Source: Saprospiraceae bacterium (GTDB lineage: Bacteria > Bacteroidota > Bacteroidia > Chitinophagales > Saprospiraceae). From it: DNA of 61,978 nt. This document shows, piece by piece, positions 6,929 to 59,674 of the stretch (within the stretch, counting starts at the first letter, position 1; the number at the start of each line of letters is the position of its first letter). Made by a program: the position numbers and the translations under genes. The stretch lies in assembly GCA_021739645.1 (NCBI GenBank), contig JAIPBL010000031.1:1-61978 (forward strand). Reading direction: 5' to 3'. The notes below the pieces were generated by a model. It searched no databases. It was not told where the DNA came from and worked only from the letters and a program-made list of their open reading frames with translations.

Positions 6929-7001
6929 GTGACTGGTGATTGGTGATTCGTGACTGGGAGAGGTCCCGTTCCAAATCACCAATCACAAGTCACCAATCAC
7001 C
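6929..7001. repeat. Heptamer-phased inverted repeat, GTGATTG type
   Basis: Left arm 6929-6957 is made of seven-base units (GTGACTG, GTGATTG, GTGATTC, GTGACTG). The right arm 6971-7001 carries the complementary units (AATCACC, AGTCACC). The arms flank a 13-base loop and start six bases after the stop codon of the preceding gene. The same unit family recurs before recN (59604-59674). A transcription-terminating hairpin is possible, but there is no T-run. Confidence 0.85.
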
Positions 7002-7274
7002 AAAAGATACCCATGTTCATATCGACAGTTCCGATAGTGAATCTACGATTCTATAGCCAGATAGAACATTCACTTTGACCAATTTACACACAACTACACA
7101 CACACATTTTTTGATCGGACTGTCACAATTAGGTAACCATCAAAAGGGCTGATACTATGAGAAAACGTCCCATGAACTTTTGAAAAGGTACCACCAACCA
7201 TAAGAGCCTGGCGGAGGGAGCCGACCACAAACATACTGTGGTAGCCCCTTCGCCATAGCTCGGGTTGGCAAACG

Positions 7275-7352
7275 GAGTTGCGAGTTTTGAGTTTTGAGTT
7301 TCGAGTGGCAACCCACCCCCAACTCAAAACTCGAAACCCAAAACTCGAAACT
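7275..7352. repeat. Heptamer-phased inverted repeat, GAGTTTT type
   Basis: Units of seven bases (GAGTTGC, GAGTTTT, GAGTTTT, GAGTTTC) run from 7275 to 7306; their complements (AAAACTC, GAAACCC, AAAACTC) fill 7321-7352. It lies about 100 bases upstream of the next gene. The rest of the 7002-7456 leader holds no gene. It contains a short ATGAGAAAA frame at 7155 and a duplicated TTTTAGTATC just before the start codon at 7457. The same heptamer type recurs at 39195-39238. Confidence 0.85.
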
Positions 7353-7456
7353 TTAGGAAGCAACAATCAAGACTTTACAATAGAAACAGAGCAAAAAAGC
7401 ACTGGACAACCATTAGCATTTTAGTATCTATCAATCATTAACAATTTTAGTATCCC

Positions 7457-10400
7457 ATGAGAAAATTCGAGTTTACTAAGCCCATCAAGCGCATCCCATT
7501 TATCTTGCGGGATGCTTCTACAAGCGGGTTGCAGGGTGCGGGTCGCCTACTTCGGGCGGCAGCGCTGATGTGCCTGCTGGTGTTCGCAAGTTGGGGTGAC
7601 AGTGCTTTTGCTCAATGCGCCCTTGTTTGCAACGACGATTTAAACGTATCGCTACCCGGCCCAAGCGAGTATTGTACGCTGGAAATGACCTCTGACATCT
7701 TGCTCGAAGATCCTTCGGCATGTGCTGGGCCATACACCATTTCGCTGTTTACGCTACAAGGCTTGCCTTTGCCATCAAGCCCTTACGTCAATGCGAGCCA
7801 TATCGGACACACTTATCTTTACTCCGTGGGCGAACCCGGCGGCAACTCCTGCTGGGGCACCATTAGCATCGAGGACAAACTCGGCCCGCAGATTACGATG
7901 TGTTCCAACCATACAATTACCTGTCTGTCCAACTACAAGCCAACTACCGACGGTGGCAATGTGCCAACGCCTACGGTGTACGACTGCTCAGGCGTGGCCA
8001 GTTTCAGCTACACCGATGTCATTGACCACGGTACTTGCAATTCCACTTATGTGGCAATTATTTACCGTACTTGGACGGCAGTGGATAACCTCGGCTACGT
8101 CAGTACCTGCACCCAAACCATCATTGTACAACGGGTGACACTTGCGAACCCAATATTTACGCCAGTTTGTCCTCCCATTGTGGAGCTGCAATGCGGCATT
8201 GGCCCACAGAGCACGGCTCCTTCGGTCACTGGTTACCCTATGATCACGGTGAACGGCATTGCCTACCCGGTGAAGCCAGGTGCCAACAATTTCTGTGAAA
8301 TTGCCGCTTCTTACACCGACGATGTGGTGTCCATTTGCGGCGGCAGCACAAAGATACTACGCACCTGGACCGTTTACGACTGGTGCCTACCGACCACGCC
8401 CGGCAACGGCAACCCGTGGTCTTGCATTCAAGTCATCAAGAAACTTGATAACACAGCGCCTTCGATTACCTGCCCGGCCCCCATCACGCAGGGCAGTTCC
8501 TCTGGCGGCTGCTACGCATCCTTCAATTTGCCTGCGGCAGTGGTTTTCGATTCCTGCTCGACCTTCACGGTCAAGGTGCTGACACCGTTCGGCATCGTGA
8601 ATGGCAACGGCGGCCCGATTTTGAACGTGCCAGTTGGTACGCATACCATCACCTACATCGCTACCGATGCCTGTGGCAACGTAGGCCAGTGCAACACGAC
8701 AATGACAGTCAAGGACGTGACCTCCCCAGTGGCGGTCTGTATCCAACATACCACGGTTTCTTTGACGGACGATGGAACGGCCATCGTTTCGGCCACCTCA
8801 TTCAACAACGGCAGCTCCGACAACTGCGGCATTGACCACATGTTCGTGAGCCGCATGCCTTCCGACTGCGATGTGGACGGTACGCCTTTTGACACTTTCG
8901 CACCTTTTAGCTGCTGTGACATTGGTGAACTGCTGATGGTTTCCATGCGGGTGTACGATGCCGCTGGCAATTTCAACACTTGCATGGTAGAGGTGGAGGT
9001 TCAGGATAAAATTGACCCAACCATCTCCTGCCCGCCCAACAAAACCATCGAGTGCGCCGACGCAGTTCCTGCCGTTTCAGTGCCGTTTTTCAGCGACAAC
9101 TGTCCTAACGTTACCTGGACACACACCGAAACCAACAACGTAACGAACTGTGGCACTGGGTTCATCTGGCGTGAATACACCGTCACTGATGCCAGTGGCA
9201 GGAAGGCTTCCTGTACCCAGACCATCACGGTTGTCAACTCCTTCCCATTCGGTTTGAGTAACATTGACTTCCCTGATGACTTCACCACCGACCAGTGCGA
9301 CCCCGACCTTGAGCCGAACGACCTGCCTGTTGGCTTCGACATCCCGATCATTACGGAAGATAATTGTGATTTAGTGGCTGTAACGCATACTGACCAACTG
9401 TTGCCCATCAACCCGCCCGCTTGCTTCAAGATTTTGAGGAAATGGATAGTGATTGACTGGTGCCAGTACAACCCGAACCAGCCCAACAGCCCTGGCTACT
9501 GGGAGCGCACACAGGTGATAAAAGTACAGGACAACCAAGCCCCGGTCATTGCCTGCCCAGGCAATATTACCGTGTCGAGTTTGGATGCCAACTGTGGGTA
9601 CGGTGCAGTCTCTGTGCCAGCCTTGACGGCTACCGATTGCAGCAACAACTTGCTTTGGACAGTAATTATTGACTTCAACTCAAATGGCACACCGGACCAG
9701 ACAGGCACCAGCCCTAACCTCAGCGGCAACTACCCGTTTGGCACCCATGCCGTTTCGGTAAAAGTGGAGGACAAATGCGGCAACCAGTCCACCTGTAATT
9801 TTACCATCACGGTGGTGGACGGCAAGAAGCCATCACCGATTTGCGTGAACGGCCTCGCCGTGGAACTGATGCCGATGAACGGCGGTGGCATGATTCAACT
9901 CACGCCCAGCATGTTCAACGCTGGTAGTTTCGACAACTGCACCAGCTCACAGAATCTGGCCTTTGAAATCGTACCATCGGTATTCGATTGCAACAACGTG
10001 GGCACCAACATCGTGACGATGTACGTGACTGACCAAGCTGGCAACACCGATTTCTGCGAAACCTACGTGATAATTCAGGACAACATGGTGGTTTGCCCAG
10101 CACCGCTGACTGCCAGCGTGAGTGGCAACATCGCAAATGCCGGCGGCAGCGGGATGAACGGCGTTACAATAAATGTGAGTGGAAACGGCCCATTGACCGC
10201 CCCTTCCAACACTTCGGTCAACGGCAACTTTGTGTTCTCGAACCTCAGCCTGAGCTACGATTACACCCTCACGCCAAACCACAACCTGGCTCCGATGAAC
10301 GGTGTGTCAACTTACGACCTCGTGCTGATGACCCGGCATATCCTGAACATCCAGCCGCTGGATTCACCGTACAAAATCATCGCTGGCGACGTGAATAAAA

Positions 10401-11374
10401 ACGGCTCGGTGACGACCGCCGACGTGGTGGAGCTTCGCAAGCTGATATTGCAGTTGATCCCGACTTTCCCGAACAATACTTCATGGCGATTCATTGACAA
10501 AAGTTACATCTTTCCGAATCCTGCGAACCCGTTTACACAGCCGTTCCCTGAGTTTTTCAACATCAACGACCTAGCTGCCAGCCAGAACGGGGTTGACTTC
10601 GTGGCGGTGAAAGTGGGCGACGTGAACGGCTCTGCCGTAACCAACTTCGGTGGTGGCAACACTAGCAACCGAAACCTCGTAGGCGAGCTTGATTTTGTGT
10701 TGGATGAAATGTCCATTGAGCCTGGCCAAACGTACCGTGTGCCATTCAAAGCAAGCAACTTTATCAACCTCACCGGCTACCAGTTCGCCCTTCAGTTCGA
10801 CCCTGAAGCGCTTTCACTGGAAGACATCGAGGTTGGCGAACTTGAGGGACTGAACGAGTCAAACTTCGGTTTGACGATGCTCGAAGACGGTATTATTACG
10901 ACAAGCTGGGACAATTCAAAAAACACACTACACGACAACAACACTGTTCTTTTTACGCTGGTTTTCAAGGCAAACATCAAGTCAAATTTGAGCAAAATGC
11001 TCCAAGTATCGGGTACTGTAATCCCTGCTGAGGCTTATCGCACCGCAGGCCAAGACGTTGAACTGCTTGATGTGCACCTCCGCTTCAACAACACCGAGCA
11101 AACGGTGGTCGCCGATGACTTCGAGCTGTTGCAAAACAATCCGAACCCGTTCCGTGAAACGACGGCAATTGGGTTCCGTTTGCCAGAAGCTGGCAAAGCC
11201 ACACTGACGGTGTACGACCTGTCGGGGAAAGTGCTTAAAACGATTTCTGAAGACTTTGCAAAAGGTTACAACGAAGTCATACTGAACCAGAACGAACTGG
11301 GCGCCGCTGGCATCCTGTTCTACCAGCTCGAAACTGCTACGCAAACTGCTACCCGCCGAATGGTGCGGCTGTAA
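7457..11374 (+). CDS. T9SS-secreted HYR/dockerin-like/cohesin-like protein B
   Basis: A 1305-residue paralogue of the preceding gene with the same order of modules. The N-terminus has an unusually long basic leader (MRKFEFTKPIKRIPF) before the hydrophobic core AAALMCLLVFASW and a cleavage site near AFA-Q. HYR-like modules start near residues 331 (DNTAPSITCP), 517 (DKIDPTISCP), 691 (DNQAPVIACP) and 787. A prealbumin-like module at ~874 is followed by a dockerin-like motif (DVNKNGSVTTADVVELRKL, ~977) and GVDFVAVKVGDVNGS. A cohesin-like sandwich spans ~1085-1208 (GYQFALQFDPEAL), and the sorting domain runs to RRMVRL. Tandem duplication with protein A is clear. Whether the dockerin and cohesin halves of the two proteins bind each other is untested. 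Confidence 0.82.
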   Translation: MRKFEFTKPIKRIPFILRDASTSGLQGAGRLLRAAALMCLLVFASWGDSAFAQCALVCNDDLNVSLPGPSEYCTLEMTSDILLEDPSACAGPYTISLFTLQGLPLPSSPYVNASHIGHTYLYSVGEPGGNSCWGTISIEDKLGPQITMCSNHTITCLSNYKPTTDGGNVPTPTVYDCSGVASFSYTDVIDHGTCNSTYVAIIYRTWTAVDNLGYVSTCTQTIIVQRVTLANPIFTPVCPPIVELQCGIGPQSTAPSVTGYPMITVNGIAYPVKPGANNFCEIAASYTDDVVSICGGSTKILRTWTVYDWCLPTTPGNGNPWSCIQVIKKLDNTAPSITCPAPITQGSSSGGCYASFNLPAAVVFDSCSTFTVKVLTPFGIVNGNGGPILNVPVGTHTITYIATDACGNVGQCNTTMTVKDVTSPVAVCIQHTTVSLTDDGTAIVSATSFNNGSSDNCGIDHMFVSRMPSDCDVDGTPFDTFAPFSCCDIGELLMVSMRVYDAAGNFNTCMVEVEVQDKIDPTISCPPNKTIECADAVPAVSVPFFSDNCPNVTWTHTETNNVTNCGTGFIWREYTVTDASGRKASCTQTITVVNSFPFGLSNIDFPDDFTTDQCDPDLEPNDLPVGFDIPIITEDNCDLVAVTHTDQLLPINPPACFKILRKWIVIDWCQYNPNQPNSPGYWERTQVIKVQDNQAPVIACPGNITVSSLDANCGYGAVSVPALTATDCSNNLLWTVIIDFNSNGTPDQTGTSPNLSGNYPFGTHAVSVKVEDKCGNQSTCNFTITVVDGKKPSPICVNGLAVELMPMNGGGMIQLTPSMFNAGSFDNCTSSQNLAFEIVPSVFDCNNVGTNIVTMYVTDQAGNTDFCETYVIIQDNMVVCPAPLTASVSGNIANAGGSGMNGVTINVSGNGPLTAPSNTSVNGNFVFSNLSLSYDYTLTPNHNLAPMNGVSTYDLVLMTRHILNIQPLDSPYKIIAGDVNKNGSVTTADVVELRKLILQLIPTFPNNTSWRFIDKSYIFPNPANPFTQPFPEFFNINDLAASQNGVDFVAVKVGDVNGSAVTNFGGGNTSNRNLVGELDFVLDEMSIEPGQTYRVPFKASNFINLTGYQFALQFDPEALSLEDIEVGELEGLNESNFGLTMLEDGIITTSWDNSKNTLHDNNTVLFTLVFKANIKSNLSKMLQVSGTVIPAEAYRTAGQDVELLDVHLRFNNTEQTVVADDFELLQNNPNPFRETTAIGFRLPEAGKATLTVYDLSGKVLKTISEDFAKGYNEVILNQNELGAAGILFYQLETATQTATRRMVRL

Positions 11375-11415
11375 AATTGGAATTGGGAATTTTGGGGTCA
11401 TTCCCAATTCCAATT
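11375..11415. terminator. Perfect 16-bp hairpin of GGGAATT-type heptamers
   Basis: AATTGGAATTGGGAAT (11375-11390) pairs perfectly with 11400-11415 around a 9-base loop. It begins directly after the TAA of the preceding gene. A single-armed form of the same unit (GGAATTGGGAATTGG) lies at 19650-19676. It is placed where a terminator would act, between a rightward gene and a leftward pseudogene, but lacks a T-run, so termination is inferred from position. Confidence 0.65.
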
Positions 11416-11574
11416 AGGGGTGTTAAGGACAATTTGTTTTATTTTTTTGTAAAAAATCTCAACAAATTCTGTTTTGTTCCAAGCCCCCGCTGTATTGAAT
11501 TTTTGCACAAATAGTTCCGATGGTTCTTTGAAAAGTAGGTTTTGCGACCAAAAGCAGCCCATGGCAAAAGTGAA

Positions 11575-12003
11575 ACCCGGTACAGCCGTTTGGCTTCGAG
11601 CTGTGCCCCAGCCGTTCCATCGAAGCGAGAGGTGAACACGATATTGGCGCCGAGTGCTTGAAGAATTCGCTTGCGCTCGGTGCTTGTATTTTCGGGCATG
11701 CAGAGCGTTAGCGGGATATTCAGTGCTGCGCAAAGCGGCGCCCGTGTTGCTGCTGGTGGCGTCGAGCAGGTGCTTGCCTTGGCCGAACTGGCCGTCCCGC
11801 ACAGCGTTTTTAATGCTATTGAAGGCCGGGCGTGACTTGACGCTGCCGCCAAGCTGCTGCCATTCCAGCTTGGCGAAGCTGCGGACGCCGGGCTTCCGGA
11901 AGACATTTCTCATTTCGTACATCGGCGTCTTGCCGACCAATTGGCCGACCTGCAGCGTTTTTTCGGCTGCGGAAACAGTTGGTAGAAGCAGGGATGTGGT
12001 CAT
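11575..12003 (-). pseudogene. Cysteine synthase-like gene, frameshifted and truncated
   Basis: From ATG at 12003 the frame encodes a PLP-dependent cysteine synthase start: LVGKTPMYEM, then KLEWQQLGGSVKSRPA (the K in GSVKSR is where the PLP lysine sits) and the substrate-loop motif LLDATSSNTG. Near 11731-11737 the reading frame shifts and a few codons appear lost. Homology then resumes in another frame with IPLTLCMPENTSTERKR and ALGANIVFTS. It stops around 11575 (LEAKRLYR), less than halfway through a normal ~300-residue enzyme. The remaining bases to 11420 show no recognised protein. The product cannot be functional. Confidence 0.8.
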
Positions 12004-12010
12004 GGTTTTC

Positions 12011-12047
12011 AAGTAAAAAGGTCAAAGTGAGAAGGTCAAAGTGAGAA
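12011..12047. repeat. Two-heptamer tandem repeat (AAGGTCAAAGTGAG)
   Basis: A 14-base unit (two seven-base halves) is repeated twice, eight bases upstream of the start codon of the cysteine synthase remnant. A related 14-base tandem (AAAAAGGCAAAAGT) sits at the matching place before dcd (15311-15345). Neither has a second arm. Confidence 0.75.
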
Positions 12048-12068
12048 GTTTGGTCAGTGCCAAAAACA

Positions 12069-12102
12069 AAAAAGCCTTTCCGTGGACACGGAAAGGCTTT
12101 TT
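12069..12102. terminator. Strong bidirectional terminator hairpin, orphan
   Basis: AAAAAGCCTTTCCGTG at 12069-12084 pairs perfectly with CACGGAAAGGCTTTTT at 12087-12102, giving A-rich and T-rich flanks on either strand. No intact gene feeds into it: the leftward gene starts at 12003 and nothing convincing lies to the right until 13632. It is probably left over from a gene lost from the 12.1-13.6 kb stretch. Confidence 0.75.
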
Positions 12103-13631
12103 GAAAAAACAGATTATTGCACGTTTCACCGCAATGTTCTGCAGCCCTTCCTTGTCGGAATAGTACAGCAACAACAGCATGCAATGAAATGGATTTGCGT
12201 CATTTTTGGAAGTTTGGAAACTAGGGAAATTCAAGTTTGCACCGTAAAAATTCAAAAGTTGTGCAGAGGTTTAAACTTATTCTTGACTTAGTGTATCAGT
12301 AGGCAGTGGGGTGGGGGAGCTTAAATTACTGATTTTCAGCATTGTACAGAATTGATAATTCACCTAACCAAGACTTGGTATTTTCTGCATTCCTAACAGA
12401 CTCATAAATATTTGTCAAAATAAGTATTAAAAAAATTGCTTTGGGACTATACAACAAATCAGAATTTCCATACCTTGCAGCCGATTTAAGACACACACAC
12501 CTTATAGACACTCGTAAAATTTGACATGCCGGAGGCCTACAAAGGCCAACACTCACCAGCAGCAAACTTGAGAATTTACACTAAGATTTCACTATTGAAC
12601 AAAGTGGGGTTACGATTCCCCTGCGAGTAAAAAATTTCCCAACTTCCGATTTCAGGCCCTAAAATAGGGCAGCTCAAGGCTTACATGTACGTTTGAGCCT
12701 GCATCCCTTTACCGATAAGAAGCAGCGTTGTCATTGCATCGTTATGCAAATCTCTGATGCCATCAATGCCAAAGATGCAATTTGTAATCCCTTGAGAACA
12801 CGCAAGACCTCTTTCCGGATTTCCGGGAAGGGGTTCTGTGTTTTTAGGGAGTAAGTGAACGTTGCTTAAAGGGATTGATGTTGCTGACGTTTTTTGGCTT
12901 GTATCGATTTGTCTATCCAAGTGGTTGATTTTCAATGATTTGATTTTTTTGGAAAGTATTTTCAACCCAAGCCTTTAATTCCTAGTTGTCAGCCTTTTGA
13001 AATTATTTTTTTACAAATATTTTGTGCTGTCACTTAGAGCATCTACTTTTGGCTCGATTTTTAAGTAATTGTTATTAAAATTCCTGTGAACATGAAAGGA
13101 CTGTTATTCAACTCAAGAGCGTGATGAGAAGCCGGAAAGGACATCTAACCAATTAGCAACACCGTTTTTTAAGTAAACTATCCTGACAGCCGATTTGTAG
13201 TACAAAGACATTTCAACAACCAATTGTAGTCCGAGCTTCTCATCCATTTTTTTCTTTCCCTCCACTGTTCACTAGCGTTTTTTTTATCGGTGGTGTTGCT
13301 TGCAATCTTGAAACTCATCTATCGTCGCTGTAATCGTAATTGCAGTATTGCCAATGCGTTGCCACCCAACAATGCAGGTTTCGGGAATCCTCGTCTTTTT
13401 CACCCCAATGAACAAAAGATGTAATCGGTTTTTGGGATAGCCTCTCTCCAGTTCTTTGGAGGGGGGTTTTTTTTTGCCCTGATTTTCAGCGGTTTCCATC
13501 CTAGGCTACGCTATGTTTAGTCGAAAAATGGCGTGACAACCTTAACTTCCCTTAGTCATTAGGCCATCGTTTTTTGTTTACTTTGCGCCGCTTTTCAAAA
13601 AGGGCCTGTACTTAACTCAAAATCATCCTTA
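12103..13631. other. 1.5-kb stretch without a recognisable gene
   Basis: No frame here has a signal peptide, domain or codon use like the neighbours. The longest candidate is a 71-codon leftward frame at 13284-13499 with a plausible-looking stretch (KTRIPETCIVGWQRIGNTAI) that I cannot assign; it could be a fragment of a lost gene. GATGAGAAGC at about 13123 is mirrored by GCTTCTCATC at about 13234. A Bacteroidota-like box, TACTTTG, is at 13579-13585, about 46 bases before the TerC gene, and may be its promoter. Confidence 0.5.
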
Positions 13632-14591
13632 ATGCTTGTCTGGATTGGCTTTATTTCACTGATAGGTGTATTCCTTGCGCTTGACTTGGGTGTTTTCAAC
13701 AAGGACCCACATAAGATTTCCACGAAGGAAGCTTTGCGATGGACGGCGCTATGGGTGAGCATGTCGTTGCTGTTCAGCATATTTATCTATTATGCCTACG
13801 AAAACAACTGGTTTGGCATCGGAAAAACAATAGGCCTACATTCCACAGGCTGGGATGCTGCCATTACCTACCTAACTGGCTACATCGTCGAACAGTCGCT
13901 CAGTTTGGACAATGTCTTCGTGATCGCCGTCATTTTCAGTTATTTCCATATTCCGATGAAGTACCAGCACCGAGTGCTGTTTTGGGGCATCATCGGGGCG
14001 CTGTTCTTTCGGGGCTTGATGATTGGTGCTGGCGCAATATTGGTTCAGCAGTTTGACTGGATCATGTACCTTTTCGGCCTCATCCTGTTATGGACGGCCT
14101 ACAAGATGCTCAAGTCTGACGATGAGCAAATACATCCTGAGAACAATCCAGTGGTCTTACAGCTTCGCAAAATTTTACCTGTGACAAAGTCTATTCGCAG
14201 GGAGCATTTCTTCGTAAAATGGAAGGGTAGGACCATCGCCATGACGCCGCTTTTCGTTGCCTTGGTGGTGGTGGAAACCACGGATATCATGTTTGCATTC
14301 GACAGTATCCCGGCCATTTTTTCCATCACGAAAGACCCTTTCATCGTCTTTACTTCCAACATATTCGCCATACTCGGCCTTCGCTCGCTCTACTTCGTGT
14401 TGGCCTCCATGCTTGACAAGTTCCAGTACGTAAAGTACAGTTTGGTCATCATCTTAACCTTTGTCGGCATAAAAATGCTAGTGTTTCACCCACTGCACAT
14501 TGTGTTGCCAGAGTGGGTTTCGTTGGCCTTCATCGTGTTGGTGCTGGGTAGCGGGATATTTTTCTCAATGTGGAAAGACAAGCAGGAATAG
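13632..14591 (+). CDS. TerC/Alx-family membrane transporter
   Basis: A 319-residue integral membrane protein with eight or nine hydrophobic segments. Family hallmarks are visible: the acidic helix VEQSLSLDNVFVIAVIF near residue 85, and VVVETTDIMFAFDSIPAIF near 215, whose Asp/Glu residues are thought to bind metal. The short loop RTIAMTPLFVAL and the end KMLVFHP...WKDKQE also fit. Proteins of this family (TerC, Alx, MeeF/MeeY) export Mn2+ and help metal loading of secreted proteins; the substrate here is not shown. It stands alone, preceded by a possible TACTTTG promoter box and followed at once by the 14595-14764 palindrome. The length is normal. Confidence 0.9.
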   Translation: MLVWIGFISLIGVFLALDLGVFNKDPHKISTKEALRWTALWVSMSLLFSIFIYYAYENNWFGIGKTIGLHSTGWDAAITYLTGYIVEQSLSLDNVFVIAVIFSYFHIPMKYQHRVLFWGIIGALFFRGLMIGAGAILVQQFDWIMYLFGLILLWTAYKMLKSDDEQIHPENNPVVLQLRKILPVTKSIRREHFFVKWKGRTIAMTPLFVALVVVETTDIMFAFDSIPAIFSITKDPFIVFTSNIFAILGLRSLYFVLASMLDKFQYVKYSLVIILTFVGIKMLVFHPLHIVLPEWVSLAFIVLVLGSGIFFSMWKDKQE

Positions 14592-14594
14592 AGA

Positions 14595-14764
14595 GCAGTT
14601 CGACAGTGGGCAGTTGGCAGTCAGGGTGCAGTTGTTTAGCCAGCTTGCTGCCCTGAACAATGAGAGGTGGTAACTTTTCCAAGTGTGCCACCTCTCTATA
14701 TTTTATGTAGTGCATGGGCTTTCAGGCTGTCGAACTGACTGCCAACTGCCCACTGTCGAACTGC
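14595..14764. repeat. 30-bp perfect inverted repeat of GGCAGTT-type heptamers
   Basis: Left arm 14595-14624 and right arm 14735-14764 are perfect reverse complements over 30 bases, built from seven-base units (GCAGTTC, GACAGTG, GGCAGTT). They span a 110-base loop with no gene. The left arm begins four bases after the stop codon of the TerC gene. The right arm ends four bases from the stop codon of dcd. A bidirectional terminator between convergent genes is the simplest role, but the length and phasing are unusual. Confidence 0.9.
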
Positions 14765-14768
14765 CAAC

Positions 14769-15305
14769 TCAAAATTTATTCTTCCACATCATGCTTTCCA
14801 CGGGCCTGTCGGTGCGGGTGTTGTACTTGGCATCCGATTTTTTGTTGTAAAAACGCTCAACGTCCCCTTCCACTATGAAGTAAATCAACTGGCCGATGGG
14901 CATACCGGCATAGACTCTGACGGGTTGGGTGGCAGAAATTTCGAGTGTCCAGTGATTGCAAAAGCCGACGTCACCCTTGCCTGCCGTGGCGTGGATGTCA
15001 ATGCCGAGCCGCCCAACGCTGCTCTTGCCTTCCAGGAAAGGCACCGTGTGATGGGTCTCCGTATATTCCAATGTGACACCGAGGTAGAGCACACCGGGTT
15101 GGAGCACGAAACCTGTTTCTGGTATTTCAAAATGGTCAATCTCGTTGTGCATCCTTGCGTCCAGCACGGGGTCACGGTAGTTGGCGAGCCATTTGCCGAG
15201 GTGCACGTCGTAGGAGTTGGTGCCAAGGCAAGCACGGTCATAAGGCTCAATAACGATGTCGCCAGACTCAACGGCTTCGAGGATTTTTCTATCGGAAAGA
15301 ATCAT
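14769..15305 (-). CDS. dcd: dCTP deaminase
   Basis: A 178-residue trimeric nucleotide hydrolase that converts dCTP to dUTP, supplying dTTP synthesis. Typical features are the N-terminal MILSDRKILEAVESGDIVIEPYD, the turn GTNSYDVHLG, the catalytic region FLEGKSSVGRLGIDIHATAGKGDVGF (catalytic Glu in the later part is seen as HWTLEISA), and the C-terminal lid near DAKYNTRTDRPVES. Length is as expected for a mono-functional Dcd; a bifunctional dCTP deaminase/dUTPase cannot be fully excluded by eye. The stop codon TGA overlaps the edge of the heptamer palindrome downstream, and a tandem heptamer repeat lies five bases before the start. Confidence 0.93.
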   Translation of the reverse strand: MILSDRKILEAVESGDIVIEPYDRACLGTNSYDVHLGKWLANYRDPVLDARMHNEIDHFEIPETGFVLQPGVLYLGVTLEYTETHHTVPFLEGKSSVGRLGIDIHATAGKGDVGFCNHWTLEISATQPVRVYAGMPIGQLIYFIVEGDVERFYNKKSDAKYNTRTDRPVESMMWKNKF

Positions 15306-15310
15306 AGGTT

Positions 15311-15345
15311 TAAGTAAAAAGGCAAAAGTAAAAAGGCAAAAGTGG
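15311..15345. repeat. Two-heptamer tandem repeat before dcd, with promoter-like box
   Basis: AAGTAAAAAGGC-type units repeat with a 14-base period directly upstream of dcd. Read on the dcd strand the repeat contains TACTTTTG (bases 15323-15330), an exact match to the Bacteroidota -7 consensus TAnnTTTG, about 18 bases before the ATG. No -33 TTTG is found at the usual distance, so promoter function is uncertain. Confidence 0.6.
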
Positions 15346-15590
15346 GTTGTTAGTTTGCCATTTCATGCTACCTGCTATTTATTTGAGGGGCAAAAATAGT
15401 TTTTTTTGAATGATGGTGGCTTTGGATTAATCACCGGGTGTGGCCGCGCTTGGCCCATTCTTTTCATGAAAATATTTGGTGAATGGCTTTTTAGACCAAC
15501 GGGTTGTCTTTTGAGTTTGTTTGGCCGTTTTTTTGCCGAAATTTGTACCGCAAACAATCAATATTCATTCAATTTTTCATTCAAACAATC

Positions 15591-16223
15591 ATGTCAAATC
15601 CATCGCAAACTAAGGAATCAACCGTCCCGAAAAAGAAAAAGAAAAAACGCTCCATCAACTGGCGGCAAATCCTCATCGTAGGAGGCCTATTGATAGCCTT
15701 GTTCAGTATGGTAGCACCAGATATTTCTCGGCTGTTTAGTAGCGCAGGTAGCAATCGAACGACCTATACGTCGGCTTCCTCCTCAAACTCAACTTCCAAC
15801 CCTGCACCTGTCAAAAACGCTGAACCCATGCCAGAACCCAAGTTTCAAAAAGAAGGGGAACTTTATTTTCAAAAGGCCGGAGGCGGCAAGGCCTTTTCGA
15901 AAATCGAAATAGAAAAGGCAGATACGGAGGTGGACCGGCAATTCGGCCTTATGTTCCGGAAGTCCATGCCAGAGGACCAGGGAATGCTGTTTCTTTTCGA
16001 GGCGAGCGAGCAGCAGTCCTTTTGGATGCGCAACACCTATATCCCACTCGACATCATGTTTGTGGATGAAAACGGCGTCATTACGACCATCCATGAAAAC
16101 GCTAAGCCGCAAAACGATACTTCGCTACCCTCGAATGGCCCGGCTAAGTATGTGGTGGAGGTGAACGGCGGGTATGCCAAGAAGTATGGAATCGAAGTAG
16201 GGGACAAGATTAGCTGGCAATAA
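15591..16223 (+). CDS. DUF192 domain protein, membrane-anchored
   Basis: A 210-residue protein. The ATG at 15591 is preferred over upstream frame extension because it gives a lysine-rich cytoplasmic tail (PKKKKKKRSINWR) followed by one transmembrane segment (ILIVGGLLIALFSMVA, ~30-45). After a Ser/Pro-rich linker, residues ~90-208 form a DUF192 domain: EVDRQFGLMFRKSMPEDQGMLF, FWMRNTYIPLDIMFVDENG and VVEVNGGYAKKYGIEVGDKI. The domain is common in envelope proteins of many bacteria and its biochemical role is not settled. It stands alone; the nearest terminator is 126 bases downstream. Confidence 0.88.
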   Translation: MSNPSQTKESTVPKKKKKKRSINWRQILIVGGLLIALFSMVAPDISRLFSSAGSNRTTYTSASSSNSTSNPAPVKNAEPMPEPKFQKEGELYFQKAGGGKAFSKIEIEKADTEVDRQFGLMFRKSMPEDQGMLFLFEASEQQSFWMRNTYIPLDIMFVDENGVITTIHENAKPQNDTSLPSNGPAKYVVEVNGGYAKKYGIEVGDKISWQ

Positions 16224-16348
16224 GCTCTATTTCCTATTTAATAAGTATGACCTTGGATTTCATTTAGATTATTCGAGACTGTACCCCCCGCTGGGGCAGG
16301 TCGAGCAACTTGAGCATAAGCTATGTTCATTTCAATGGACTACTTACG

Positions 16349-16383
16349 AAAGAGCCACTGGTATTTATCAGAGGCTCTTTTTT
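16349..16383 (+). terminator. Rho-independent terminator
   Basis: AAAGAGCC (16349-16356) pairs with GGCTCTTT (16373-16380), followed by further Ts. It lies 126 bases after the DUF192 gene and probably ends its transcript. The 16224-16609 gap holds no gene. The stretch 16290-16340 has a small CCCCGC/GGGG fold that I could not match to a known RNA. Confidence 0.7.
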
Positions 16384-16609
16384 ATGTGGCATGCCCTGTC
16401 CTGAAATATTCAAAATCAGCTTCAAAATCGCCAACGCTATTGACGACCGTAGCAAACTCCACAAGCTTCCTACCTCCCGGATTTTCCTTTTAGCAATTTC
16501 CTTTCACAAATTTATTTTCAAAAAATATCGAGCCCGTGGGTACCACCTTGCCCAATCCTGCACAAAGCAAGTGTCAATCATTTTTTTCAAACCTTTCAAT
16601 TTCATAAAA

Positions 16610-17674
16610 ATGAAAAATTCTATCGTCTTCAACTTGCTCGCAGCCATTGCTTTTATTTCCGTCCTCGCTTCTTGCCATAAAGAAGAAAGTGCCCCTTCAA
16701 CCGTCTATTTCTCTGACGAGGAACTGGCAGAAATCAAGGAAAGCACATGCCTCACGATAATGCCTGATGACTTTGCTACAACGCTCGACGATACTCCACC
16801 AACAGGAGCAATCGAAGAACGTGCCACCGGGATGAAAAACAAGTTCTGGTCGCCCGGCTCAACACTTCGGGTAAAATTTCTCGGGGGAAACAGCACCCTC
16901 CAGAACAAGGTGATGCAGTACGCCGAACAGTGGGAGCAGTTTGCTAATATCAACTTCGTGAAGGTTACTTCGGGTACTGCCGAAATTAGGGTGGCCTTCG
17001 ACGCGGTTGGGAGCTTCTCCTATATTGGGAAAGATAATCTTGGTATCGTTGCCAATCAAAAGACGATGAACCTGGACCTTGCGTCGCCAAGCACATCAGA
17101 AGCATACTTCAAATCCACGGTGATTCACGAATTCGGCCATGCGCTTGGCTTGGGGCATGAGCAACAGAGTCCTTTGAGCAGCATCCCGTGGAACGTACCC
17201 GCCGTCTATGCTTTCTATGCGCAGATGGGCTGGCCCCAACAACAGGTGAACCAAAATGTGCTAAACAAGTACCAATGGACACAGACACAGCACACGAGCC
17301 ATGATGCCCAGTCTATCATGCAGTACCCCGTTTCAGCCAGCCTGACCACCAACGGGTTCAGCATCCCGATGAATACACAGCTATCGGCCACCGATAAGGA
17401 CTTCATTGGTAAAATCTATTCCAACCAAAAAATCAAGGTGCGCCATGCCGCCAACGTTTCCTTCGCCATCACCTTCTGGCTCAACGGCATCTACCACACC
17501 ATCCAGCCCGGCGAGAGCTTATGGGTGCCCGCCAAGACGACCGGAAACCAGCTCAGCATCTGGGAGTGCCCCAACGGCAATTGTAGCTGGGACGGGTATG
17601 CGCCGCCTTACGGCTACAATTATAAAATTGTGTCTCAAGGGAGCAATGGGAATTTGACGCTGGCGTACGATTAA
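16610..17674 (+). CDS. Astacin-like zinc metallopeptidase, lipoprotein
   Basis: A 354-residue protein. ATG at 16610 opens a lipoprotein signal (MKNSIVFNLLAAIAF ... LASC, lipid on Cys21). The catalytic domain carries the full astacin zinc signature HEFGHALGLGHEQ (HExxHxxGxxHE) around residue 173, and the Met-turn SIMQYP at ~240; the helix before it (VMQYAEQWEQFANINF) is also typical of M12A. After the protease comes a ~90-residue C-terminal sandwich with a WECPNGNCSW motif that I cannot name. It probably acts at the outer membrane surface or in the periplasm. There is no sorting domain, so lipid anchoring replaces T9SS attachment. Confidence 0.88.
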   Translation: MKNSIVFNLLAAIAFISVLASCHKEESAPSTVYFSDEELAEIKESTCLTIMPDDFATTLDDTPPTGAIEERATGMKNKFWSPGSTLRVKFLGGNSTLQNKVMQYAEQWEQFANINFVKVTSGTAEIRVAFDAVGSFSYIGKDNLGIVANQKTMNLDLASPSTSEAYFKSTVIHEFGHALGLGHEQQSPLSSIPWNVPAVYAFYAQMGWPQQQVNQNVLNKYQWTQTQHTSHDAQSIMQYPVSASLTTNGFSIPMNTQLSATDKDFIGKIYSNQKIKVRHAANVSFAITFWLNGIYHTIQPGESLWVPAKTTGNQLSIWECPNGNCSWDGYAPPYGYNYKIVSQGSNGNLTLAYD

Positions 17675-17822
17675 CCAATGTCCTAGTTCATTAGAATACG
17701 CTTCTTTTTCTCCTAACAAAAAGGCTATTCGACCAAGCGGTATATCAGCAATCAATCAGATTGCCCTGGCACTGCTTTGACTTTTTTACCGCCCTTCCTC
17801 CGGGCAACAAACTATTTGTGCT

Positions 17823-18167
17823 ATGCTAAAAATCCTTGTATTGTTGCTGTATTTGCTGCCAGGCAGCATGCAGCCATTGACACCAACCAGCGAAGATTGC
17901 AACTGCCCTCCTGTAACAAACCTTCAGAAGGCTTGGCAGACTTCTTCGGCCTACACGTTATCTTGGACTGCAAATTCCGCCGCTGCTGGGTACATCGTAA
18001 AATACACCAGAGAGGAGGATAGCTACGCAAGCCAAGCGTTTTATACTTCAAGTTCCACTTTTACTTTTAACAACCTCCCGGCTGGGCACTACCAGTTCAA
18101 TGTAGCGGCTGATTGTGGGTCAACCACAAGTGATTTTGTCGGAATAGAGGATGTAATTGAAAATTAG
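17823..18167 (+). CDS. Small secreted fibronectin type III-like protein
   Basis: A 114-residue protein with a signal peptide (MLKILVLLLYLLPGS) and one beta-sandwich domain. The pattern CPPVTNL...YTLSWTANSAAAGYIVKYTRE...FTFNNLPAGHYQFNVAADCG is that of a fibronectin type III module as found in larger T9SS proteins. It ends soon after the domain and has no sorting signal. It could be a stand-alone periplasmic or secreted domain, or a shortened gene. Its stop codon is three bases from that of the convergent gene at 18170. Confidence 0.7.
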   Translation: MLKILVLLLYLLPGSMQPLTPTSEDCNCPPVTNLQKAWQTSSAYTLSWTANSAAAGYIVKYTREEDSYASQAFYTSSSTFTFNNLPAGHYQFNVAADCGSTTSDFVGIEDVIEN

Positions 18168-18169
18168 AC

Positions 18170-19648
18170 TTACTGGCGGAGGGACTTTTTTAGTTCCTCC
18201 GCCTTTAGCGCCAACCACACACGCAGGAAGACCTTGTTGTTTTCCAAAAGTTCTTTCAAATATTGGTCAACCATCGCTTTTGTTTTTTCGGGACGGCATT
18301 GCAGTCTGCACAAGCTCCTGAACCAGGAGAGAAAGCTTCGATACTCCTCCTTCTTCGACTTGGCGAGATTGCGGTTGCTTCGCAAATAGCTTTCAAAGTT
18401 CTTTACTTGCTTTTCAACGGCTTCAAGGTCGCCAGTTCCTCTAAGCAGCTCGAAGTATATCCTAATGGAAAGCGACCTAATCCGGAGGTTGTAAACCTCT
18501 TGGCTCCTTGGTGGGGCTAAATCGAGGAATTTAAGGGATGTTTGGTAGTCCTTGATATCGCCACTTTTCATACCCTGTTGGAAATGGATGGAGCCCAAGC
18601 AGAGGCATTCGACGATATCCATTTCTGAATCAGGAAGGTTTCGCTTGTATTGCCGGGTAAATTCCTGTGCCCAAGAAAATTCCCCAACCTTTGCTGCTGT
18701 GATAACGATATTGATAAAACGGTTTGGGTCAATGATGCCATTGGCACCCAGGAACAAACCATCTTCAACGGATTTCCTGTATAGCTCGTGCATCAACTGC
18801 GCCTGTTCTGCGCTTCCGGCCTTCAAGATGGTATTGGCCTTTGTAATAAGCAATTTGAGAAGCATTTTTTTCTCGTGCGCCTCCATTTTTGGCAGGCTTT
18901 CCAGCACCAAATTTTTTACTTGAAGAAAATGAGCCGCTGTGGTTTCATTTCTCAAGGCGTGGTGAAGCGCAAGAAAAGCCTGGAGGGGCAATACGTTATT
19001 GGACCGTTTTTTTGCGATATCAAGGGCCGTGTCAAGGAAGAGCAGTTGCTCTTCAATGTTGATAAATCGACCTCTTACCAGGCTTTCGGCGCTCGTCTCC
19101 AGATAATCCAGTGCAAAATAATTCTCAAGGTGCTCAACATGGCGGTCTAGGAAATCATTGCTTTGGTCTGCCCGCTCAGTTTCTGGATGGTAATAGAGGG
19201 ATTGGTATAAAAAGGACAATTCCCGAAAATGGATTTTTCCTTTGCTTTCTCCATTTTCCAATTTTCGCAAGCGTTTGGAAACGGTTTCTTTGTAAAGCTG
19301 GTAGTCGTTTCGGCCAGCTAGCGCATCAGTAAGCAATTCACTGCGCAGGTGCGAGGCAGCCCTTAATTGCTTTATTGCTAGAAAATCTTCCAACAGCCGG
19401 CACATCTCTGACTTGAGCCGGCGCAACTGCAAGTCGTCAAAGGCTGCTTCCCCAAAGGCGCTGGCAAATAATGACTGGTCAGTCAATTCGGCTTCCGCCA
19501 TAGCTGGATGAGCTGTCCTGAGGGCCTCAAAGCAAGCACCGTACACTGGCTTTGTGCAGTGCAAGGGGCATTGCAAAAACGCAGCGACTTCGTCAAGCTC
19601 CGCTTTTTTGAGTAGCCTCATCATGCTAAAAAGTGTATTGCGGGACAT
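18170..19648 (-). CDS. Uncharacterised alpha-helical repeat protein (paralogue of 39216-40625)
   Basis: A 492-residue soluble protein of almost continuous amphipathic helices, with no signal peptide or membrane segment. The N-terminus (MSRNTLFSMMRLLKKAELDEVAAFLQCPL) matches the pattern of its paralogue in this window (LIALLRTLSRTEQRELRKVATSPFF). Both share a helical array and a length near 490, a family I have seen widely in Saprospiria and related Bacteroidota without known function. TPR-like packing is likely but repeats are not regular enough to name. A single-armed GGGAATT heptamer repeat lies immediately before the start codon. Confidence 0.75.
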   Translation of the reverse strand: MSRNTLFSMMRLLKKAELDEVAAFLQCPLHCTKPVYGACFEALRTAHPAMAEAELTDQSLFASAFGEAAFDDLQLRRLKSEMCRLLEDFLAIKQLRAASHLRSELLTDALAGRNDYQLYKETVSKRLRKLENGESKGKIHFRELSFLYQSLYYHPETERADQSNDFLDRHVEHLENYFALDYLETSAESLVRGRFINIEEQLLFLDTALDIAKKRSNNVLPLQAFLALHHALRNETTAAHFLQVKNLVLESLPKMEAHEKKMLLKLLITKANTILKAGSAEQAQLMHELYRKSVEDGLFLGANGIIDPNRFINIVITAAKVGEFSWAQEFTRQYKRNLPDSEMDIVECLCLGSIHFQQGMKSGDIKDYQTSLKFLDLAPPRSQEVYNLRIRSLSIRIYFELLRGTGDLEAVEKQVKNFESYLRSNRNLAKSKKEEYRSFLSWFRSLCRLQCRPEKTKAMVDQYLKELLENNKVFLRVWLALKAEELKKSLRQ

Positions 19649-19649
19649 A

Positions 19650-19676
19650 AGTAGGAATTGGGAATTGGAAATTAGG
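19650..19676. repeat. Single-armed GGGAATT-type heptamer repeat
   Basis: TAGGAATTGGGAATTGGAAA lies two bases upstream of the start codon of the leftward gene. It uses the same seven-base unit as the perfect hairpin at 11375-11415 but here has no complementary arm. Confidence 0.7.
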
Positions 19677-19870
19677 TATTGTGTTGAAAACCAATTGTTT
19701 GCACAATTTATTCTCTAAACCAAATTTACGGAAGTACTTATTTTTTTTGATGCTAAGAAAACAAGAATTACCGACAAAGCCCCAATTGATGGATTTTTAT
19801 TTATGGTTGATTATCAATGAATTACGATGATTAAATCTACCGCCAACCTGGCTATTTAGCTGAATAAACT

Positions 19871-20311
19871 ATGTACAACCGACAATTTTCTTGGTTGTCG
19901 GCCTATTATCGAGCTATTACTTTCGCTTGTGCAATGGTAGTAAACGACCATGCAACCACAGCTACCAAATATGCAATGAACCTGCCTTCTGACAATACCG
20001 GAAAAACAGTTGTCTTCCCGGTAAGAAGAGGATACCGGATAGTCCGGTACGCAGACATTGTACGGTGTCAGGCAGCGGGCAATTATACAACGATTTTTCT
20101 GGCCAATGGCCAAGAGTTTTCGATTTGCAAGCGGCTGAAGGACACAGCGGCGATGCTGCCAAGTGAAGTGTTTTTTCGGGCGCACCAGTCGCATTTGGTG
20201 AACCTGTGGTGGGTGGAGCTGTGGGTGCGGGAGGGACTCGTGCTTTCCAACGGCGCCAAGGTTCCCGTGGCAAAAAGTAGAAGAGACGGGCTGAAAAGCC
20301 GGCTTATTTGA
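19871..20311 (+). CDS. LytTR-type DNA-binding regulator
   Basis: Up to 146 residues; the last ~100 form a LytTR DNA-binding domain (RGYRIVRYADIVRCQAAGNYTTIFLANGQ, then EVFFRAHQSHLVNLWWVEL and VPVAKSRRDGLKSRL). There is no receiver domain, so it is not a normal two-component response regulator. The start is uncertain: ATGs at 19871, 19934 and 19976 are all in frame. The last leaves little more than the DNA-binding domain. It is 42 bases upstream of a three-gene envelope cassette and may control it; that link is only positional. Confidence 0.82.
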   Translation: MYNRQFSWLSAYYRAITFACAMVVNDHATTATKYAMNLPSDNTGKTVVFPVRRGYRIVRYADIVRCQAAGNYTTIFLANGQEFSICKRLKDTAAMLPSEVFFRAHQSHLVNLWWVELWVREGLVLSNGAKVPVAKSRRDGLKSRLI

Positions 20312-20353
20312 TACTGATAAACCAGATTTTAGAAACCTAAAAATTATTTGATT

Positions 20354-21824: not shown

Positions 21825-21975
21825 CAAAGTTCAAATAGAAGTTACGAATACATTACTTCCTCGCACAACTGAAACACTCGATACACTTGGCGGCCAAGGT
21901 GGCGGGGTCGTGAGGGAATAAACACCTAAGCCCATATTTATACTTTGGAGCACCAGGTTTTGTCCATTTGAAATT

Positions 21976-22036
21976 GCCGTTAGCTTTTAGCTATTGGCCA
22001 TTGGCAAAAGCATATAGCCAAAAGCGAATGGCCAGA
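21976..22036. repeat. Heptamer-phased inverted repeat, GCCATTG type
   Basis: Seven-base units (GCCGTTA, GCTTTTA, GCTATTG, GCCATTG, GCAAAAG, then CCAAAAG, CGAATGG, CCAGAAG) can be read without a break from 21976. The two halves are imperfect reverse complements. It lies 54 bases before the next gene. Confidence 0.7.
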
Positions 22037-39194: not shown

Positions 39195-39238
39195 GAGTTT
39201 CGAGCGACTTGGAACTCAAAACTCGTAGCTCAAAACTC
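39195..39238. repeat. GAGTTTT-type heptamer repeat overlapping a coding end
   Basis: CGAGTTTCGAG on the left is answered by ACTCAAAACTC-type units up to 39238, between two convergent genes. On the minus strand the units encode the last residues (VLSYEF) and the TGA stop of the helical-repeat gene. So the repeat has become part of a protein end. Confidence 0.8.
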
Positions 39239-57902: not shown

Positions 57903-57942
57903 GCAGCAATTTTTACAAAACTACAAAATAAAATGCCTCCCA

Positions 57943-59598
57943 TCAAACCCCCATCAGCTCCCTCGCATTCGTCAGCGCAGCCTCGCTCGGTGGGTTTTGG
58001 CTCAGCATGACAGCGATGGAGCGCACCCGCTCATCAGGGGTGAGCAGTTTTACCTTGGTCTCGGTCGAGTTGCCGTCCACTTTTTTGTAAACAAAGTAGT
58101 GCGCATCGGCCTTGGCCGACACCTGCGGCGAGTGGGTAATGACGACCACCTGGTGGTGGTTGGAAAGTTGGCGGAGGATATTGCCCATTTTCAGGGACAC
58201 ATCGCCGGAGACCCCGGCGTCAATTTCATCGAAAATCAGGGTGGGCAACGGGATGGCACTGGCCACCAGCGACTTTGTCACCAACGTCAAACGGCTCAAT
58301 TCACCGCCACTGGCCACGTCTTTGATGAGCTGCATCCGGCTGCCGGGGTTGGCAGCGAAGAGGAAGTTCACGTCGTCGGTGCCAGTGAGCATCAGGTTGG
58401 CAGCTTCCTTGAAGTCCACCTCGAAACGGGTGTGCGGCATGGAGAGTTGCGCCAAGAGTTCGAGTATTTTTTTGGTAAAGCCTGGGGCAGTCTTTTTGCG
58501 GCGCTCTGAGAGTTTCGAGGCAAGCTCCTTAAGCTGCTTTTCCTGTCCCAATATCTCAATTTCCAATTTCTCAATCTCTCCTGAAAGGTCGCCAATCTCG
58601 TCCAGCTTCGTCTGCATAACCGCCTCAATATCAAGCAGTTCCTTCACGCTTCCCACCCGGTGCTTGCTTTGTAGCCGGTAAATCACATCGAGGCGCTGTT
58701 CCACTTCCATCAGCCGCTCCGGGTTGGCTTCGGTGCTTTCTGCCACCCGCTCGAATTCCCCGGCCAGGTCGTCCAGTTCCACCGACAAGCTCTCCAATCG
58801 GCGGTACAGTTCGGGGATGGTCGGGTGGAATTTTTTCACCTCGCCCACGTTGCGGAGCAGGTCGTTCAATTGTCCTGTGAGGGGCATTTCGCCATCGGTC
58901 AGGTGATGGAACGCCGCCGACAGCGTCCGCTTGATTTCCTCGGCGTGGGTCAGGCTGTCCCGCTCTGCTTCAAGGCGCTCCTGCTCACCTTCCTTAAGCT
59001 CCGCTTTTTCAAATTCGGAAATTTGGAAATTGAGAAATTCGAGGTCCTGTGCGGTGCGGGCGCTTTGCTCCCGCATTTGCGCCAGCTTTTTTTTGTTTTG
59101 GGTAAAAATGCGGTAGGCGGCTTGGTACTCGTTGAGCAACTGCTTATTGCCCGCCAGGGCATCCACCATGCGAAACTGAAATGAAACATTGTGAATGTCC
59201 AGCGTGTCGAACTGGAGGTGGAGGTCAACAAGTGCCCCAGTCAATTGGCGCAGCACGTCGAGCGTGACGGGCGTGTCGTTGACGAAGGCACGGGACTTGC
59301 CCGCCGGGGTCAGCTCCCGCCGTACCACGCACTCCTTTTCAAAATCAATATCGTTTTCTTCGAAAAAATCCTTCAAATCATACGGCGACACGTCGAAAAT
59401 GCCCTCGATGACGCATTTCTCGGCTTCGTTGTACAATGATTTGGAGTCCGCCCGCTCGCCCATGATGAGGCCGAGCGCACCCAACAGGATGGACTTGCCA
59501 GCCCCGGTCTCCCCGGTGATGATGGTCAGGCCCCCGGGGAAGTTGATTTCGAGTTCCTCGATGATGGCGTAGTTGCGGACGGAAAGGCGCTTTATCAT
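57943..59598 (-). CDS. recN: DNA repair protein RecN
   Basis: A 551-residue SMC-like ATPase acting in double-strand break repair. The start is MIKRLSVRNYAIIEELEINF at 59598; the longer frame reads through a heptamer palindrome. Walker A is GETGAGKS (29-36); two long coiled coils flank a central dimerisation region (residues ~150-370); the ABC signature SGGELSRL and Walker B LIFDEIDAGVSG follow, with the His-switch region VVITHSPQ. Length is as in other RecNs. The 3' end is duplicated as a relic at 49864. The start codon is only six bases from the palindrome. Confidence 0.95.
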   Translation of the reverse strand: MIKRLSVRNYAIIEELEINFPGGLTIITGETGAGKSILLGALGLIMGERADSKSLYNEAEKCVIEGIFDVSPYDLKDFFEENDIDFEKECVVRRELTPAGKSRAFVNDTPVTLDVLRQLTGALVDLHLQFDTLDIHNVSFQFRMVDALAGNKQLLNEYQAAYRIFTQNKKKLAQMREQSARTAQDLEFLNFQISEFEKAELKEGEQERLEAERDSLTHAEEIKRTLSAAFHHLTDGEMPLTGQLNDLLRNVGEVKKFHPTIPELYRRLESLSVELDDLAGEFERVAESTEANPERLMEVEQRLDVIYRLQSKHRVGSVKELLDIEAVMQTKLDEIGDLSGEIEKLEIEILGQEKQLKELASKLSERRKKTAPGFTKKILELLAQLSMPHTRFEVDFKEAANLMLTGTDDVNFLFAANPGSRMQLIKDVASGGELSRLTLVTKSLVASAIPLPTLIFDEIDAGVSGDVSLKMGNILRQLSNHHQVVVITHSPQVSAKADAHYFVYKKVDGNSTETKVKLLTPDERVRSIAVMLSQNPPSEAALTNARELMGV

Positions 59599-59603
59599 TG
59601 CTC

Positions 59604-59674
59604 GGTGATTAGTGATTGGTGATTGGTGATTGGATTGGACGGCCCAATCACTAATCACCAAGCACCAGTCACCA
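59604..59674. repeat. Heptamer-phased inverted repeat, GTGATTG type
   Basis: Left arm 59604-59636 is GTGATTA/GTGATTG units in a row; the right arm 59643-59674 carries AATCACT, AATCACC and AGTCACC. It lies six bases upstream of the recN start codon and so would be in its leader RNA. Its units are the same as those at 6929-7001. Confidence 0.85.

Follow-up and report, generated by a model that had tools for sequence, protein, structure and literature searches.

The stretch of DNA analysed here, called the window below, comprises 61,978 nucleotides of contig JAIPBL010000031.1 from a Saprospiraceae bacterium (assembly GCA_021739645.1) and is one contig (C9) of a 6.16-Mb host genome labelled G000. 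An initial annotation had singled out ten loci in it as one family of repeats at gene borders, with a strict seven-base period and a limited vocabulary of words, usually mirrored in a second arm and touching a stop or start codon. The quoted sequences are present at 10/10 loci and the phasing is real, but the strictness of the register and the limits of the vocabulary were overstated. Comparison with relatives (labelled G002-G016 and so on; same-genus genomes were used for slot comparison, and L numbers denote loci or contig stretches) revealed that the border slot and a polarised hairpin last in evolution while the word, and even its period, is replaced. The ten loci, to which no strand is assigned, are the following.

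6929..7003: GTGATTG palindrome, G-rich arm 6929-6953, C-rich arm 6974-7003, 7 nt past the stop of a HYR/dockerin gene that ends at 6922.
7275..7352: GAGTTTT palindrome, G-rich arm first, mid-intergenic.
11375..11415: short GGAATTG hairpin immediately 3' of the stop at 11374.
12011..12047: period-14 direct repeat, AAGGTCAAAGTGAG, without inverted arm.
14595..14764: dispersed-family palindrome of 170 nt, with an inner hairpin and arms phased 7-8-7, that fills a convergent TerC / dCTP-deaminase-like border.
15311..15345: single arm of AAGTAAA units at a divergent border, the dCTP-deaminase-like start following 6 nt downstream.
19650..19681: single arm of GGAATTG units close to where the minus-strand gene 18170-19648 starts.
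21976..22036: palindrome of mixed words that belongs to a dispersed element at 21930-22060.
39195..39238: short palindrome of GAGTTTT units where an MqnC-like gene (stop 39186) meets its convergent neighbour.
59604..59674: GTGATTG palindrome, 6 nt upstream of a RecF/RecN/SMC-type ATPase gene (start 59598, minus strand).

These loci are heterogeneous. Textbook phased palindromes lie at 6929, 7275 and 59604 and short palindromes at 11375 and 39195; single arms are found at 15311 and 19650 and a period-14 repeat at 12011, and 14595 and 21976 belong to dispersed elements. When the lag-7 score of each locus was compared with 200 single-letter shuffles, eight of the ten exceeded the shuffles at p ≤0.01 (p 0.01 at 11375), the exceptions being 39195, which is marginal (p 0.025), and 12011, which is not 7-periodic (p 0.28). 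The z scores of the RNA minimum free energy (MFE) are −7.3 at 6929, −6.7 at 11375 and −2.8 at 39195. A mirrored second arm is seen on reading at seven loci (6929, 7275, 11375, 14595, 21976, 39195 and 59604), but not at 12011, 15311 and 19650. Gene borders were taken from a simple caller made for this analysis from open reading frames (ORFs) and codon usage; by this measure contact with a stop or start was claimed correctly for seven loci, which have a called gene end within 10 nt (the gene at 12011 is a weak call), but not for 21976 and 7275, which lie 54 nt and 105 nt from the nearest called end. The array at 19650 is 26 nt from the called start and 2 nt from the longest-ORF start. The strict seven-base register has to be given up genome-wide, because period 8 is nearly as common and one relative carries a palindrome of period 10.

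Chance as the origin of the phasing is ruled out by the scores of the window, the genome sample and the single loci against shuffles, and the doubt raised in the initial annotation, that phasing might be no more frequent than in shuffled sequence, is removed in both window and genome sample. In the window, nine segments score at least 10 at lag 7 and ten at lag 14 (shuffles 0.1 and 0.2), the remaining lags between 4 and 30 yielding just 0-2 segments each. An earlier subset of 461,978 host bases had prominent lags at 7 (31 segments), 8 (21), 14 (25), 16 (12) and 24 (11), with 0-2 per lag in a single shuffle. In the host sample of 1,225,078 bases, lag-7 segments occur at 4.7 and lag-8 segments at 3.4 per 100 kb, with 0 in shuffles, although these densities may lean high because contigs were partly chosen for a GTGATTG or GCAGTT match. 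Beside the period-7 class, the host genome thus has a period-8 sister class. The period-10 palindrome, with the word GGTTGATGAA, lies in G012 (L260) at slot L046:14757 (MFE z −14.6), where G000 and G013 have an 8-mer.

The host sample holds 119 arrays with 57 distinct words. GTGATTG, which contains no GGG, is the most frequent (15 arrays), so that the idea of a limited vocabulary was half right. Four units are the mode (47/119 arrays), the G-rich arm is almost without C (3.2% C in G000), the loops of GTGATT palindromes measure about 1-43 nt and border hairpins in G000 reach about 80 nt. G002 and G004, which lack GTGATT matches, have lag-7 segments at 10.6 and 7.7 per 100 kb, mostly as direct arrays with words such as AGGGATG and AGGGAGT. 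In one contig stretch of G002 (L283, positions 1549-2118, 3902-4037 and 12697-12974), extended arrays of 7- and 8-mers with several different words form clusters, G- and C-strand runs alternating in them. In G035, of the same order, TTAGTGG-type tandems are plentiful and the reversed GTGATTG pattern matches 32 + 26 times; reversed patterns are therefore not a clean control for the heptamer class.

Palindromes favour the spacers between co-directional genes. Among 27 G000 palindromes, 22 lie between co-directional genes, two at convergent and one at a divergent border, one in a called gene and one at a contig edge; 22 of the 25 intergenic ones are thus co-directional, as compared with 62% of intergenic bases (p 0.006). 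By our count, 17 of these 22 begin no more than 20 nt past the upstream stop and 11 of 22 are within 20 nt of a start. The 77 single arrays are distributed over co-directional (29), convergent (9) and divergent (9) borders, called genes (29, some probably miscalls) and one contig edge, and divergent borders are not significantly less frequent among palindromes than among single arrays (p 0.15).

The two arms of a palindrome follow a nearly fixed order. Polarity was defined as the order of the G-rich, nearly C-free arm and its mirror, a property independent of the strand read, for which either order is a priori possible. Overall, 57 of 58 phased palindromes are G-first. In G000 the count is 27/27, and the three relatives G006 (9/10), G016 (4/4) and G002 (1/1) together give 14/15; the sole C-first palindrome is L305:9688 in G006, and in G004 no palindrome was found. 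Outside Bacteroidota, 16/16 pairs are G-first among 80 of at least 108 listed GGTGATT-tandem stretches from species genomes, and these include other words, in Cyanobacteria and Proteobacteria. GGTGATT tandems are also present in 11 phage stretches of IMG/VR. Ordinary, strongly skewed intergenic hairpins of the host are G-first in 26 and C-first in 19 cases (Fisher 1.4e-7 against 57/58), and under later settings ordinary hairpins of all skews give 68 versus 52, the 26:19 being the strongly skewed class. In single arrays the G strand is directed away from the nearest gene in 22 cases and toward it in nine, which is a weak result because start regions already show an outward G skew of about 0.24. 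The polarity might conceivably stem from the masking of C-rich Rho sites during transcription.

Persistence of the slots was followed at ten borders, each chosen for having a G000 palindrome, from three syntenic stretches. A case was a slot in a genome with both flanks aligned, an occupant being phased at a period of 7-10 with shuffle p ≤0.05 and hairpin-forming at MFE z ≤−3. Excluded before counting were cases whose flanks ended over 60 nt short of the element or whose interval was at least 400 nt long, among them G006, G007 and G011 at 6929, where phased palindromes are present, and G012 at 39195 (908 nt). The 50 remaining cases comprise 33 phased and 34 hairpin-forming occupants, 29 of them both. 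In contrast, 17 control cases, from 16 borders in these stretches that lack arrays, include two phased, two hairpin-forming and one both (Fisher 1.5e-4 and 6e-5 for phased and hairpin-forming). Just five of the 50 occupants reach a global identity of at least 0.6 to the G000 occupant, the flanks being 70-94% identical. Thus, relatives often have a hairpin at the same border with a different word, which means that the architecture lasts and the sequence is rewritten. The 29 phased hairpins contain 270 G-C and 92 C-G pairs, with a ratio above 2:1 in 22/29, long inserts blurring some rows. According to the initial annotation, ordinary terminators would be fixed and alignable between relatives; the loci are indeed fixed, but mostly not alignable since the word has been replaced. 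Even in the nearest relative, G013, three of eight slots carry another word, four the same or a related word and one no palindrome.

The individual slots illustrate this turnover. At 6929, the same-genus genomes have a G-first palindrome with the stop codon on one side and a conserved AGATACCC motif on the other, with the words GTGATTG in G000, GTGATTC/G in G006, AATTGAG in G003, G008, G012 and G013, AAATGAT in G011 and ATGATGA in G007, and it is decayed in G005. At L046:14196 the words are GGTATGA in G000, GAGGGATGA in G008, GAGTTAT in G012, an AATGATA type in G003 and GAGGTATG in G006, and at L041:15208 the period itself differs, with a 7-mer in G000 and an 8-mer in G013 and G008. The 7275 slot holds GAGTTAT in G013, and its palindrome is mostly missing in other relatives. 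By eye, the stop at 11374 is followed by other words in G003, G006, G008, G011 and G012. The 15311 slot has AATGATG in G011, an 8-mer in G012 and related words in G005 and G006. GTGATTG occupies both arms at 59604 in G000 and G006, GACGGCA is found there in G011, G008 and G012 carry four TACGATT units on one arm in the same register as G000, and the array is missing in G005. In G005, the 39195 slot contains an unphased hairpin and L041:2684, by eye, a hairpin that resembles an intrinsic terminator, T run included.

The word at a slot appears to follow the genome in which it resides. GTGATT matches with up to one mismatch number 58 in G000, 128 in G006, 9 in G003, 16 in G008 and two each in G012 and G013 (range within the genus 0-128), and AATTGAR matches number 20, 2, 86, 52, 83 and 21 in the same order. 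In 6/6 genomes, the 6929 slot bears whichever of the two is commoner genome-wide, which leaves room for the template-copying process that the initial annotation had conjectured. A universal vocabulary over phyla did not emerge, three words being in common versus 1.9 expected (p 0.29).

To account together for the phasing, the polarity, the persistence of slots, the replacement of words and the agreement of one slot with the commoner word, we infer that the best remaining explanation is a rewriting of the DNA itself from donors located elsewhere in the genome, wherever a slot tolerates or uses a hairpin. In this view, each border hairpin is formed by two convergent arrays, the G-rich, C-poor one leading, with a word of 7 or 8 bases present in about four copies per array; the slot lasts, and the word would be rewritten by DNA-level copying. 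We regard the chances of this reading as even. The copying would combine replication slippage, advancing by about 7-8 nt at a time, with transfer of sequence from one dispersed array to another, and arms would be rewritten toward whichever word is common in the given genome. The hairpin would be tolerated or favoured at 3' ends, and selection for a 3'-end or spacer hairpin may retain it. A wider version, which we hold to be possible though rather doubtful, envisages a genome-wide system in which architecture, polarity and border position are inherited and the word is not, words competing, displacing one another and spreading from slot to slot through copying that keeps a register of some 7-8 bases and acts on a single defined arm of the polarised hairpin. 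If this is true, a polarity common to Bacteroidota, Cyanobacteria and Proteobacteria would imply a shared, unnamed copying mechanism.

Several results weigh against rewriting from donors. The agreement between slot word and genome word concerns one slot and two words, and the control for slot persistence is small (17 cases). A laxer hairpin finder (stems of at least 9, looser array removal) counts 58 ordinary hairpins as G-first and 29 as C-first, so that a mild general G-first lean is possible. Among 13 GTGATT palindromes, arms are no more alike within a locus than between loci of the same word (p 0.515), which weakens local fold-back or arm-to-arm templating, and homologous dispersal of whole GTGATT palindromes reaches just p 0.075. 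A post-hoc observation, not relied on here, is that the GTGACT variant occupies the loop-proximal unit in 6/12 left arms and 0/13 right arms. Finally, the sense RNA of 30 co-directional host palindromes contains 40 A.C and 27 G.U mismatches (p 0.14) and hence no sign of RNA-pairing selection; two further palindromes in G006 contribute two G.U and one A.C. A pure RNA hairpin account is itself weakened by this missing G.U excess and by the rarity of T tracts.

In-place replication slippage might suffice without any donor. Tandem 7-8-mers would arise by polymerase slippage, variants would sweep through arrays and fold-back copying would mirror the arms. Mrazek 2007, known to us through MacGregor 2015 and Rehm 2015, reportedly put forward a polymerase-footprint idea for tandem 7-8-mers. 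The 59604 slot fits this scheme, since the TACGATT units of G012 and G008 and the GGTGATT first arm of G000 share both register and GATT, as does the predominance of four units. The 7-nt indels between Cyanothece strains mentioned in the available part of MacGregor 2015 (PMC4679880) are in agreement with it as well. However, arms show no excess of similarity within a locus, the slot word tracks the genome-wide word, and slippage alone yields no G-first rule. We consider slippage in place unlikely to be the whole explanation.

Two of the ten loci belong to dispersed elements. The element at 14595-14764 has 105 matches in its own genome, in which we count about 59 arms spread over about 41 places. 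In an alignment by eye, the 28-base arm with its 7-8-7 phasing often forms inverted pairs that flank variable interiors, and dispersed copies with conserved terminal inverted repeats are a trait that the element shares with miniature inverted-repeat transposable elements (MITEs). The same element occupies this border in G011 and G005, with other words in G008, G012 and G006. The element at 21930-22060 occurs at eight places in its own genome, itself included, with matches at several places in G008. All border palindromes might be MITE-like or similar to REPINs (doublets of repetitive extragenic palindromic, REP, sequences) and moved by a hairpin-recognising transposase, the polarity reflecting transposase recognition and single arms being remnants. 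REPINs, as far as described in the available part of Bertels and Rainey 2011 (PMC3116915), consist of two convergent repeats that form a hairpin with a variable spacer, singlets being remnants, and the host elements share the convergent pair, the variable spacer and the singlets. The GCAGTT family is clearly dispersed, and the lineage expansions of GTGATT within the genus also fit a mobile element. REP arms, by contrast, contain no tandem heptamers and adjoin genes for REP-associated tyrosine transposases (RAYTs). Such an association was not found in the host: among seven loci of Y1-transposase genes (PF01797), with flanks of about 1-2 kb covered, one has a phased pair nearby and another a single array. 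A GTAG or CGTC tag is described for the foot of the REPIN hairpin (PMC3733652, in part); by eye, no common tag was noticed in flanks and loops of GTGATT elements. Replacement at exactly the same spot would require excision and re-insertion. Transposition as the general cause is quite improbable in our view.

Placement behind stop codons, and the ordinary hairpins that fill the same slots in some relatives, would be expected if the elements were ordinary terminators or mRNA 3'-end hairpins free to drift, phasing being a side effect of slippage where nothing constrains the stem. This appears very unlikely, as terminator-like sites with a T tract occur at chance level within 3000-22600 (26 versus 24.0 expected) and overlap just one of the eight loci listed there, phased arrays are also found upstream of starts (15311, 19650, 59604), and neither the polarity, missing from ordinary hairpins (26:19), nor the lack of a G.U excess is accounted for. 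At gathering thresholds, Rfam matched a tRNA alone; when E values up to 1 are admitted, the palindromes give weak matches to microRNA models, with scores that fall far short of the cut-offs.

Two further candidates were rejected. Three-frame stop codons as the purpose of the G arm are unenriched in the host (71/119 arrays versus 77.6 expected); by array they are enriched in G002 and G004 (42/46 versus 29.4) and in other phyla (179/251 versus 142.9), but when distinct words are counted none of the sets shows an enrichment, and the loci of other phyla had been picked for one stop-bearing word. Loss of SbcD follows no pattern, the gene being above the cut-off in G000 and most of the genus and absent or weak in G004, G011 and G013.

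Rewriting of border hairpins from donors has to be seen against heptamer systems already described, for which we refer to the available portions of the respective papers. The initial annotation knew of no mechanism described in Bacteroidota, but MacGregor 2015 (PMC4679880) reports arrays of TAACTGA and other heptamers in Beggiatoaceae, Cyanobacteria and five Bacteroidetes. Those arrays resemble the host arrays in being intergenic, patchy among relatives and accompanied by other heptamers in the same regions; they differ in being mostly direct repeats of one word before start codons, with one indirect repeat reported. The likeness to cyanobacterial short tandemly repeated repetitive sequences (STRRs), together with a phased-arm architecture at gene borders that is independent of the word, is borne out: host arrays consist of tandem 7-base units above chance, about four per array, intergenic near ORF ends, with period 8 nearly as common. 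Rehm 2015 (PMC4692102) describes GGGAATC and GGGGA(C/T)T heptamer arrays in Xanthomonas and Nostoc that are intergenic, near ORF ends and mostly between aligned ORFs, with four units commonest and G-strand repeats closer to the ORF that lies 5' of them; between two species, 83% of positions are retained. Two Xanthomonas genomes have 70 and 75 convergent inverted pairs of one word, with the same G-first polarity as the host palindromes. However, the Xanthomonas and Nostoc repeats use one word per genome, contain GGG tracts (quadruplex) and are retained between species, whereas the host has dozens of mostly GGG-free words with a period of 7 or 8, and between species one word gives way to another. 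In the P6b stem of the Nostoc trnL intron, built of Class I TDNGATT or Class II NNTGAGT heptamers (Kaasalainen 2015, PMC4476775), a heptamer stem at one hairpin position has likewise been replaced wholesale several times by differing words; this is a single group I intron locus with two words, as opposed to at least ten intergenic slots and many words in the host genus.

Convergent pairs of heptamer arrays are thus already published for Xanthomonas, and the replacement of an entire heptamer stem for one Nostoc intron; many words, two periods and genus-wide turnover are added here. In the open-access literature, no paper was found on genus-wide word turnover at fixed borders or on word-independent polarity. 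For the long-known intergenic heptamers, three testable rules result, namely G-first pairs, persistent border slots and replacement toward the common word of the genome. If word takeover holds at many slots, active copying between non-coding loci in bacteria would follow. The turnover is also a warning that sequence alignment can miss orthologous border hairpins.

Three other features of the window deserve mention. The intergenic region 7010-7265, upstream of the gene at 7457, is strongly conserved in nine genomes; its predicted structure shows compensatory change in 9/59 pairs (e.g. CCACA/TGTGG to CTGCA/GCAG) and has no Rfam match, which makes the region a candidate new cis-acting RNA. The ORFs 3206-6922 and 7568-11374 encode adjoining large HYR-domain proteins, the first with a dockerin-like match and the second with cohesin- and dockerin-like matches and a sorting tail of the type IX secretion system (T9SS), sorting domains of this kind being in keeping with Bacteroidota. 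Finally, the ORF 22590-24617 contains a 162-base unit in two tandem copies at 23412-23732.

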